DNA of 64,000 bases from Serratia entomophila. Its GTDB lineage: Bacteria; Pseudomonadota; Gammaproteobacteria; Enterobacterales; Enterobacteriaceae. The notes below the pieces were generated by a model. It was not told the DNA's origin and did no database searches. It saw only the letters and a list, made by a program, of their open reading frames with translations. The position numbers and the translations under genes were made by a program. This document shows, one piece after another, positions 8,704 through 32,926 of the stretch. Location: NCBI RefSeq assembly GCF_021462285.1, contig NZ_CP082787.1, positions 3,534,001-3,598,000 on the forward strand. Direction: 5' to 3'. Numbering within the stretch: position 1 is the first letter of the stretch; every line of letters begins with the position of its first letter.

Positions 8704-9208
8704 GGAATATTCCTTTAATCCTGATGTGACTTCCTTGATGCAATTCGGGAGAGTGAAAATTGGCACCCGAAAAATGGCCAAACGGCAATAAACAGTCTTA
8801 GGCAAATTCCCAATAAAAGAAGATAACGAGGTAAGGAAAGACTATTTTATAAACATGGGAATTGACACGAAAATTAAAGAAACACTTTTATAAACACATG
8901 AACCGACAATAAAAAACCAGTAAAACATTGAAATAAAATCATTTAAAATCAATAGGTAATTTATTTTTGTGAATTAAAAAAAACAATATGAAATCATATA
9001 AAAACCCGTAAACTATTTTATCTAATCTACCAATACCGTAATTATCACCCTGGCATAAAACGCTTTCCTTGATGTTTTCTTATTTTATTTCCTTACCGCT
9101 ACGCAGCGTATTTTCGCCCGGCAATGCCGGCAGAATTTAGCCGCGCTGGCTATCTGCCGGCCAAGCCGTCACAATACTGCATCATTCATGCGCTACTCAG
9201 GAACCACC
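8704..9208. other. AT-rich divergent intergenic region, pga leader and promoter
   Basis: 505 bases without a gene, clearly AT-richer than its flanks, between pgaA (minus) and the HicB-like gene (plus). On the pgaA side three GGA triplets fall within about 30 bases of the GTG start (in TCC on the plus strand at 8711-8713, 8720-8722 and 8732-8734). No operator could be assigned with confidence. Confidence 0.6.
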
Positions 9209-9652
9209 ATGCCTTGCGATTATTCCGCCCATTACGCCTTTGATCATGACAGCGACGCCTGGCAGATTGGCTTTCGCGATTTCCCCGAACAGCGCGCAGC
9301 CTGCTACAAGCGTGAAGACGTCGAACTGGAAGCGCAGGAAGGCTTGCTGACCGCCATCGCCGTCGCCATGGACGAAGGACGCGAAATACCCGCACCCTCC
9401 CCCCGGCAGGCGGAAGAGCTGGCGGTGCATCTGCCGGTGCTGGTCAGGCTCAAGCTGGAGCTGCATAACATCATGCTGGCCAATGGCATCGCCAAGGCGG
9501 ACCTGGCGCGCAGGCTGGGTTTTAACGGCGGCCAGATGGATCGTTTGCTGGACGTGAGCTATGCCTCAAAAGTCGAGGCGCTGGAACAGGCGCTGTACCT
9601 GTTGGGCTATGAAGTGCGCACGGCGGTAATGGAAATAAACCGCGGCCAGTAA
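9209..9652 (+). CDS. HicB-family antitoxin-like protein, solitary
   Basis: 147 residues from ATG 9209, preferred over ATG 9188 because AGGAA lies six bases upstream. The N-terminal half (about 1-65) is the HicB partial RNase-H-like fold (SAHYAFDHDSDAWQIGFRDFPE). The C-terminal half has a helix-turn-helix: KADLARRLGFNGGQMDRLLD, then YASKVEALEQALYLLGYEV. In complete modules HicB neutralises the HicA mRNA interferase and represses the operon. No hicA-sized gene with a dsRBD-like KxGS pattern is found on either side, so this looks like an orphan regulator. Confidence 0.75.
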   Translation: MPCDYSAHYAFDHDSDAWQIGFRDFPEQRAACYKREDVELEAQEGLLTAIAVAMDEGREIPAPSPRQAEELAVHLPVLVRLKLELHNIMLANGIAKADLARRLGFNGGQMDRLLDVSYASKVEALEQALYLLGYEVRTAVMEINRGQ

Positions 9653-9738: not shown

Positions 9739-9834
9739 ATGGAGTGGAATCGCCGTAACATTTGGACCGTTATTCTGCTGTCTTGCTTTGTCTTCTGGGT
9801 CATGCTGCTGACCGGCATCAACGCCGTCGCCTAG
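9739..9834 (+). CDS. small membrane protein, 31 residues
   Basis: ATG 9739 to TAG 9832-9834. The peptide has a charged start (MEWNRRN), one hydrophobic helix of about 18 residues (IWTVILLSCFVFWVMLLT) and a short tail. AAGG lies six bases upstream of the ATG. I do not recognise a named family. Positive-inside charge and the single membrane helix fit the many short inner-membrane proteins of enterobacteria. It could be cotranscribed with the HicB-like gene 86 bases upstream. Coding status rests on composition and ribosome site only. Confidence 0.55.
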   Translation: MEWNRRNIWTVILLSCFVFWVMLLTGINAVA

Positions 9835-9866
9835 GCCCCCTTCCACAACATCGCAGCATACCTGAT

Positions 9867-9889
9867 TAAAAAGCCCGCAGCAGCGGGCT
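9867..9889 (-). terminator. intrinsic terminator reading leftward
   Basis: AGCCCGC-AGCA-GCGGGCT (9872-9889). On the minus strand the hairpin is followed by T5; on the plus strand no T run follows. It therefore suits a minus-strand transcript, although no annotated minus-strand gene ends here. Confidence 0.6.
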
Positions 9890-9968
9890 ATCCCCCATTG
9901 CCCCTGCCGAGGATGAAAATAAAAAGCCTTTAAAAACAGCAATGGGTGGTTAAAAAACAGCCAAAAAA

Positions 9969-9984
9969 TGTGATCAAAAACACA
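9969..9984 (+). promoter_or_regulatory. CRP-like site upstream of ypdK
   Basis: TGTGA-TCAAAA-ACACA matches the TGTGA-N6-TCACA consensus at nine of ten positions. It lies just upstream of the -35 box at 9988. Confidence 0.5.
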
Positions 9985-9987
9985 GTA

Positions 9988-10017
9988 TTGAAATCACTCG
10001 GGCATTGGGAGTACATT
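9988..10017 (+). promoter_or_regulatory. sigma-70 promoter for ypdK
   Basis: TTGAAA (9988-9993), an 18-base spacer, then TACATT (10012-10017). The predicted start at about 10023 would give a leader of about 185 bases before the ypdK GTG. Confidence 0.5.
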
Positions 10018-10027
10018 AGCGCCGATC

Positions 10028-10201
10028 CTGTCGTGTTTCAGATTTTACCTCACGGGCGATGAAACACGGCAACCGGACAATCCGCGGTCAGGGACGTTGT
10101 TCTTTCTGATTGAAGAACCCGCCGGGCCACTGCGGATTGACCATAAAACACTCAGCACAACAATCGGGATCATTGCTGGCGAGGAACTCCAAATGGGAGT
10201 T
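10028..10201 (+). ncRNA. structured 5' leader of ypdK
   Basis: Three inverted repeats follow one another. CGTGTTTCA/TGAAACACG is at 10032-10040 and 10060-10068. CAATCCGC/GCGGATTG is at 10078-10085 and 10132-10139, with GTTCTT/AAGAAC (10099-10104, 10113-10118) nested inside. AACTCC/GGAGTT is at 10186-10191 and 10196-10201, and its right arm covers most of the GGGAG ribosome site. Read together they form a multi-stem leader. Pairing was judged by eye, not by a folding program. Confidence 0.5.
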
Positions 10202-10206
10202 GTTCA

Positions 10207-10281
10207 GTGAAATATTTTTTGATGGGCGTTTCATTCATGTTGTTTGCATGGATTGGCACCTTCATGCTGATGGTTTCCTAA
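10207..10281 (+). CDS. ypdK: YpdK-like small membrane protein, 24 residues
   Basis: GTG start at 10207, TAA at 10279-10281. The peptide begins MKYFLMGVSFM (GTG read as Met) and continues as one hydrophobic helix to MLMVS. From memory it closely matches the 23-residue E. coli inner-membrane protein YpdK (MKYFFMGISFM...). Position also agrees: in E. coli ypdK sits next to alaC and ypdAB, as here except for the intervening cybB. GGGAG lies seven bases before the GTG but can be covered by a hairpin. Function is unknown in E. coli. An intrinsic terminator follows. Confidence 0.8.
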   Translation: MKYFLMGVSFMLFAWIGTFMLMVS

Positions 10282-10306
10282 CGGCAGCCTGACCAGGTAC
10301 ACAAAT

Positions 10307-10330
10307 AAAGGGACGCATCTGCGTCCCTTT
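10307..10330. terminator. bidirectional terminator, ypdK / cybB
   Basis: AAAGGGACGC-ATCT-GCGTCCCTTT. T-rich sequence follows on both strands (TTTGTTGTTT to the right, TTTATTTGT on the minus strand). Confidence 0.85.
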
Positions 10331-10350
10331 GTTGTTTCCGCCGCCGACGA

Positions 10351-32308: not shown

Positions 32309-32384
32309 GGGCGATTAGCTCAGTTGGTAGAGCATCTCCTTTACACGGAGGGGGTCGGCGGTTCGAGCCCGTCATCGCCCACCA
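32309..32384 (+). tRNA. valU: tRNA-Val (anticodon TAC)
   Basis: 76 bases. Acceptor GGGCGAT pairs with ATCGCCC; anticodon loop CTTTACACG; T-arm GGTTCGAGCCC; CCA encoded. First of three. Confidence 0.98.
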
Positions 32385-32415
32385 TCTTGTTGAGCAGTAA
32401 GAAATGAGAAAATGA

Positions 32416-32491
32416 GGGTGATTAGCTCAGTTGGTAGAGCATCTCCTTTACACGGAGGGGGTCGGCGGTTCGAGCCCGTCATCACCCACCA
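32416..32491 (+). tRNA. valX: tRNA-Val (anticodon TAC)
   Basis: 76 bases. Same as the first copy except that acceptor pair 4:69 is T:A instead of C:G (GGGTGAT / ATCACCC). CCA encoded. Confidence 0.98.
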
Positions 32492-32531
32492 CTCATTCTC
32501 TCGTTTAGCAGTAACCTGGAAGTCCTGAAGT

Positions 32532-32607
32532 GGGTGATTAGCTCAGTTGGTAGAGCATCTCCTTTACACGGAGGGGGTCGGCGGTTCGAGCCCGTCATCA
32601 CCCACCA
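32532..32607 (+). tRNA. valY: tRNA-Val (anticodon TAC)
   Basis: 76 bases, identical to the second copy, CCA encoded. Seven bases separate it from the tRNA-Lys gene. Confidence 0.98.
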
Positions 32608-32614
32608 CTTCTGC

Positions 32615-32690
32615 GGGTCGTTAGCTCAGTTGGTAGAGCAGTTGACTTTTAATCAATTGGTCGCAGGTTCGAATCCTGCACGACCCACCA
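32615..32690 (+). tRNA. lysV: tRNA-Lys (anticodon TTT)
   Basis: 76 bases. Anticodon loop ACTTTTAAT, T-arm GGTTCGAATCC, acceptor GGGTCGT / ACGACCC, CCA encoded. Last gene of the array, followed by a terminator. Its 3' end is copied about 200 bases downstream. Confidence 0.98.
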
Positions 32691-32698
32691 ATTCAGAG

Positions 32699-32723
32699 AA
32701 AAGCGCCTTTGGGCGCTTTTTTC
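32699..32723 (+). terminator. terminator of the valUXY-lysV operon
   Basis: AAAAGCGCC-TTT-GGGCGCTTTTTT, directly after tRNA-Lys. Confidence 0.9.
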
Positions 32724-32789
32724 GTTTCAGCTCCACCTCATCCGCCCCAACCTCTTTATTGCATAGCGCACGATGTCGTGTTGGATGAG

Positions 32790-32926
32790 AACCTGCGTTC
32801 AGGTTCGAGCCGAGCGAAGCGAGACGACAACGCACAGCGTTGCCCGCAGGGTGAGGCCAAAGGCCGAATCAATCCTGCACGACCCACCCATTCAGAGAAA
32901 AGCGCCTTTAGGCGCTTTTTTCGTTT
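32790..32926 (+). repeat. partial tRNA-Lys 3' duplicate split by a hairpin-rich insertion
   Basis: AATCCTGCACGACCCACC plus the 3' flank and terminator (32871-32926) repeats 32672-32727 with 54 of 56 bases equal. The T-arm half AGGTTCGA (32801-32808) is separated from it by about 60 bases containing CAACGC-ACA-GCGTTG (32828-32842) and GGCC-AAA-GGCC (32855-32865); AACCTG-CGTT-CAGGTT (32790-32805) overlaps the left half. The rest of the 385-base gap 32691-33075 holds no gene. Confidence 0.8.

Follow-up and report, generated by a model that had tools for sequence, protein, structure and literature searches.

A conserved, structured leader RNA upstream of the small-protein gene ypdK in Serratia entomophila

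Why should a gene of 24 codons be preceded by a leader of 183 nt? The question is raised by ypdK in the window, that is, the whole 64,000-nucleotide stretch of the Serratia entomophila genome (5.15 Mb, two contigs) that was analysed here. A first-pass annotation, made from the letters alone, had proposed a compact unit of about 310 bases with its own CRP-like site, promoter and terminator, and a leader of about 185 bases with three inverted repeats, the last of which covers the ribosome site. Measured from the inferred RNA start at position 10024, the leader (10024–10206) is 183 nt and the unit (10024–10330) is 307 nt long, in agreement with those estimates.

The ypdK unit and its surroundings

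The ORF at 10207–10281 (plus strand, as are all features below unless stated otherwise) consists of 24 codons with a GTG start, as annotated, and its product, MKYFLMGVSFMLFAWIGTFMLMVS, is identified as YpdK by the NCBIfam equivalog model NF033437 (score 51.2 bits, cut-off 30, positions 1–23 of 23). E. coli YpdK (b4680) belongs to the same family, and in K-12 it also starts with GTG. To our knowledge, no function has been established for YpdK to date. The protein was recognized in 54 of 148 relatives and in 191 of the 392 genomes of the family, exceeding the cut-off in 189. The DNA of the unit is present in 26 of the 30 genomes of the genus, that of the window included, and the four genomes that lack it are 1.5–3.6 Mb in size. 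The protein family is already known; what is new is the structured leader of its gene, and this does not amount to a novel type of system.

On the 3' side of ypdK, a cytochrome b561 gene (81.4 bits in Pfam; 147 bits against an NCBIfam model with a cut-off of 170) and an alanine transaminase gene are located on the opposite strand. The upstream neighbourhood is different from that of E. coli K-12, in which ypdK is found between lpxP and alaC, whereas a HicB-like gene and a 31-codon ORF precede it in the window. The HicB-like antitoxin domain (Pfam HicB-like_2, 82.9 bits) extends over 9188–9652. A second short hydrophobic ORF, MEWNRRNIWTVILLSCFVFWVMLLTGINAVA, occupies 9739–9834, and a scan of 28 Serratia-type loci found close relatives of it in 25, the match being weak or missing in L008, L012 and L029; it has no family match above cut-off in NCBIfam or Pfam and looks like another unnamed small membrane protein. 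Elsewhere in the window, four tRNA matches followed by a match to RtT RNA (81.5 bits) are found at 32309–32889.

The ypdK loci of other genomes were taken from part of the YpdK-carrying genomes; 163 loci were reduced to 139 distinct ones by merging identical cores, and a promoter was recognized in 126 of these, the remaining 13 being excluded from the promoter-bearing set. In the window, a promoter scan gave a −35-like TTGAAA (9988–9993), lying in a conserved alignment block and replaced by TTGTAA in some species, and, after a spacer of 18, a −10-like TACATT (10012–10017), which is directly followed by the G+C-rich discriminator AGCGCC (10018–10023). The start at 10024 is deduced from this −10-like box. 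A G+C-rich discriminator is reminiscent of stringently controlled promoters. By itself the scan is weak (two promoters found versus 1.1 expected), and the better argument for the annotated promoter appears to be the conservation of its boxes: of the 126 loci, 103 retain TACATT and 81 retain AGCGCC, although these counts are partly circular, the loci having been admitted partly by the same motif. A second promoter at a TATAMT-like stretch of the E. coli-type leaders was rejected on inspection by eye, there being no steady −35 box.

The CRP-like site, TGTGATCAAAAACACA (9969–9984), matches TGTGAN6TCACA at 9 of 10 positions, is the sole such site in the 64 kb (1.12 expected by chance) and is identical in 26 of the 28 Serratia-type loci. 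However, its centre lies at −47.5 from the inferred start, between the usual CRP spacings, and so control of ypdK by CRP is doubtful. The FabR core ACAnnTGTnnnnT was absent from 9801–10100 of the window and from 43 of 44 GATCC-group loci. It was found upstream of ypdK in 20 of the 46 E. coli-type loci (L063, L033 and others), at −74 in at least six. According to a ChIP study in Salmonella (PMC4804515), FabR is bound between ddg (lpxP) and yfdZ (alaC), and its regulation there is deemed unlikely, given the convergent genes. Since E. coli ypdK sits between lpxP and alaC, FabR may control ypdK in the E. coli-type species.

At the other end of the unit, a terminator-like stem occupies 10307–10330 and also faces the convergent cytochrome b561 gene. 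The stem of the annotated terminator is thus present, but the terminator scan flags it on the minus strand only (two found versus 2.0 expected in the region), and the T run that follows it on the plus strand is interrupted.

Fold and conservation of the leader in Serratia

The predicted folding energy of 10024–10330 is −108.6 kcal/mol (z = −3.57; none of 100 shuffles as low), and the leader alone has a z of −3.36 against 200 shuffles. In the predicted fold, the 5' end (10024–10029) pairs with 10166–10171, upstream of the ribosome site, to form helix P1 (pair probability 0.72 in five pairs but 0.41 in the sixth), and a pair between 10030 and 10165 is possible. Hairpin P2 (10030–10070) pairs 10030–10040 with 10060–10070. 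Hairpin P3 (10075–10142) pairs 10075–10085 with 10132–10142 and includes an inner hairpin (10099–10105 with 10112–10118). Pair probabilities are 0.95–1.0 in P2 and outer P3, and just 0.33–0.58 in the mid-stem of P3. A CA-rich joining stretch (10143–10164), nearly invariant in Serratia-type leaders, is left unpaired (unpaired probability 0.71–0.99 across 10144–10164). Hairpin P4 (10185–10201; pair probability 0.89–0.99) pairs AACTCC (10185–10190) with GGAGTT (10196–10201) around a loop at 10191–10195, and so includes the Shine-Dalgarno GGAG (10196–10199), 7 nt before the GTG. The three annotated repeats are P2, P3 and P4; the closing helix P1 had been missed. A possible pairing between CGCC of the discriminator and a GGCG located 5' of the ribosome site was discarded, as CGCC precedes the inferred start.

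Many Serratia leaders have a reading frame that opens with ATG, GTG or TTG at the 3' arm of P2 (about 10060–10110). A conserved upstream ORF was rejected, the frames in the alignments being broken by indels and without a good ribosome site as judged by eye, and such frames are probably due to chance.

Conservation was examined in alignment A1 (30 of the 139 loci, coding part included) and alignment A2 (28 Serratia-type rows, the divergent L134 and L135 being excluded). RNAalifold on A1 gave a consensus without P1, outer P3 and P4, in which the ribosome site was paired into the ORF; because of this preference, folds of single sequences and counts on the named structure were used. Folded singly, the 28 Serratia-type leaders formed P1 in 26 cases, P2 in 28, P3 in 27 and P4 in 27, the exceptions being L003 (without P1, P3 and P4) and L028 (without P1). 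Mean folding z values by group are modest (−0.8 to −2.2). Under the named structure, 92.4% of the cells of the 28-row alignment are paired, and 17 of 52 pairs show two-sided changes (64 cells), compared with 8.9 pairs and 23.1 cells in shuffles that take no account of relatedness (0 of 500 as high). Structures slid by 1–3 columns have just 6–11 such pairs, a control that favours a structure derived from the same sequences. With the minimum-energy structure of the window itself on 30 rows, 24 of 53 pairs have two-sided changes (12.6 in shuffles, 0 of 500 as high). The number of further pair types, 44 versus 41.2 in shuffles (51 of 500 as high), is not clearly raised. G.U cells outnumber A.C cells (173 versus 45), which indicates that the folded RNA is that of the plus strand.

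All of the two-sided changes are located in P2 (3 of 10 pairs), outer P3 (10 of 13) and inner P3 (4 of 12), and we have high confidence that the fold of P2 and P3 is real. They are absent from the two-pair helix in the P2 loop (0 of 2) and from P4 (0 of 9), and P1 is invariant inside Serratia. For P4 the covariation test is uninformative, because no pair has two-sided changes; its arms are conserved and its loop is variable in Serratia-type leaders, and the arms may be kept for reasons other than pairing. Compensating changes thus preserve the fold of P2 and P3 and, as described below, that of P1 between genera and that of the E. coli-type leaders, but not that of P4.

In the inferred transcript, the GGAG is predicted to be paired with a probability of at least 0.99 at 37 °C, in accordance with the annotated hairpin over the ribosome site. 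It is paired at 0.82 or more in the local folds of all of 33 loci (the 28 of Serratia type and five of genus g40), whereas over all 139 loci the value is above 0.7 in 52 and below 0.3 in 33. The ribosome site thus appears, in silico, to be sequestered in the leader fold.

In the named genome collection, the exact 21-base word at 10151–10171 occurs 15 times, in each case in Serratia and directly upstream of ypdK. A covariance model of the Serratia leader, R1, scores the window leader, which was part of its training set, at 191.9 bits, and in the whole genome that leader is the sole place below an E-value of 0.8.

Leaders of other lineages

Applied to 84 other loci, R1 gave nine matches at an E-value of 0.0011 or better, and the end of each match lies no more than 6 nt from the start of ypdK; in the alignments of L116, L120, L157 and L127 the P4 pairs of the model are partly broken. 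P1 was assessed by helix counts, since a duplex-energy swap test was blurred by competing pairings; in several species the 5' end can pair with the loop at the ribosome site. At least six Watson-Crick pairs of P1 are formed in 28 of 28 Serratia-type leaders and in 16 of 21 other leaders of the GATCC/GATTCC(-like) group (all but L073, L074, L121, L134 and L135), compared with about 5% for shuffled partners; five of the 126 promoter-bearing loci were too short for this count, and L127 was placed in the GATCC group by hand. In four loci P1 is compensated, with GATTCC/GGAATC instead of GATCC/GGATC, and in others its wobble pair has become G-C, and we regard P1 as real with good confidence. In E. 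coli-type leaders P1 is found in 4 of 46, the same as in shuffles.

The five genomes of genus g40 have leaders of different lengths: long ones in L134 and L135, one of 78 nt with P1 in L136, and ones of about 65 nt in L030 and L133, which on reading the sequence leave no room for P1–P3 and retain a hairpin over the GGAG. Among the three that were folded, P1 formed in L136 alone, and L135 lacked P4. Given this variation in length, the hairpin at the ribosome site is what stays constant in this clade, and P1–P3 are unlikely to form a ligand-binding aptamer throughout it.

A long leader is the norm in the family, the inferred length having a median of 148 nt (range 65–200) over 126 loci. The E. 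coli-type leaders were compared in alignment A3, with 44 of the 46 loci of the GTCT group (L062, another E. coli, and L081, with a long insert, were excluded); 26 further loci of mixed type entered none of the three alignments. These leaders are long and covarying like those of Serratia, but have a different fold, with another helix and a hairpin that abuts rather than covers the GGAG. Two-sided changes occur in 9 of 12 pairs (25 cells versus 4.3 in shuffles, 0 of 500 as high; 44 rows, with relatedness ignored and the structure derived by RNAalifold from the same rows), and G.U cells again exceed A.C cells (58 versus 3). In the local fold of E. coli K-12, the GGAG is nonetheless paired at 0.90. 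Leaders of both types share a short word resembling ATACTCAG despite their differing stems, and a loose pattern for it matches 52 of 126 leaders. There is some support for transcription of the ypdK area in E. coli, in that a tiling-array study reports a UV-responsive transcript with partial overlap of ypdK (PMC3009722).

In Rfam 15, no family reaches its gathering threshold in the window region or in 15 other ypdK loci. PhrS (RF01673), an sRNA of Pseudomonas that encodes a small protein, aligns weakly with the ribosome site, ORF and terminator (10178–10336) at 18.4 bits; we treated this match as chance, because the score is half of the gathering score (37) and P1–P3 are not covered. Leaders whose ribosome site is sequestered by a hairpin form a general class, which the ypdK leaders resemble in the conserved anti-Shine-Dalgarno arm and the paired GGAG of the 28 Serratia-type and five g40 loci; the junction of P1–P3 in Serratia, however, is no part of that class. 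No description of a folded ypdK leader was found in the literature on ypdK and its locus, mostly open-access texts without supplements.

What the leader may do

Since a conserved leader shape hides the ribosome site, YpdK production is probably controlled at translation. Translational control, one of the explanations offered at first pass, is made plausible by the compensating changes in P1–P3, the conserved arms of P4 and the predicted pairing of the GGAG. The best reading, to which we assign a probability of roughly 0.6, is that the leader acts in cis and limits or regulates the translation of ypdK. The unit would then be a one-gene message in which P1, by joining the 5' end to the segment just upstream of the ribosome site, closes a junction that holds P2 and P3 and leaves the conserved CA-rich stretch unpaired, while the separate, short P4 would hide the GGAG and lower translation. 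The junction or the unpaired stretch may be the place where translation is raised or lowered, be it through ribosome standby, by an sRNA or by a protein.

A somewhat unlikely alternative is that the leader is structured without being regulatory, the fold protecting the 5' end and fixing a constant, low rate of translation. P1 would seal the 5' end, the architecture varies between lineages while the protein is retained, and some g40 genomes lack parts of the fold, all of which would suit such a role. However, a nearly invariant unpaired stretch, found upstream of ypdK in 15 of 15 cases, exceeds what stability seems to need. The same stretch, together with the size of the unit, could also suggest an RNA of dual function, whose leader would pair in trans with other mRNAs and whose second product would be YpdK; SgrS/SgrT (named in PMC5521070) and VcdRP (PMC8672173) are precedents. 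This reading appears rather improbable for the ypdK leader: it is weakened by the loss of most of the leader in some relatives (about 65 nt remain in two of the five g40 genomes), and the restriction of the exact 21-base word to Serratia in the named genome collection, the interrupted T run after the terminator and the absence of an Rfam sRNA family at cut-off also speak against it.

That a trans-acting sRNA such as GcvB targets the CA-rich stretch is very unlikely. GcvB is encoded in the genome (167.3 bits), and its R1 core is predicted to pair with 10153–10172 at −18.4 kcal/mol, an energy that 6.6% of 12,792 stretches of the window also attain. However, 8% of 99 ORF upstream regions reach it too, a longer GcvB R1 finds 15% and 18% of the background as good, and the pairing site overlaps P1. 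The least credible proposal, for which we see hardly any chance, is the temperature-sensitive switch of the first-pass annotation. A hairpin does cover the GGAG, but in silico the GGAG remains paired at 0.99 or more from 10 to 45 °C, without opening in the physiological range; P4 alone still has −5.9 kcal/mol at 45 °C, and no Rfam family reaches its cut-off in the region.

A bolder form of the cis-acting reading is improbable, though less so than a dual-function RNA as such. In this view, the ypdK leader would be a regulatory RNA that exchanged its entire fold between sister lineages, with the protein and the promoter core conserved; in Serratia it would be a full regulatory RNA that senses a ligand or partner at the invariant joining stretch, possibly acting also in trans.

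The Serratia leader represents an RNA that Rfam 15 does not match, and ypdK is a case in which the leader architecture differs between close lineages and the protein is retained. For YpdK itself, the covarying leader is a handle, as it provides concrete elements to mutate, and its presence in the YpdK family suggests that it pays to control how much of this 24-residue protein is made.
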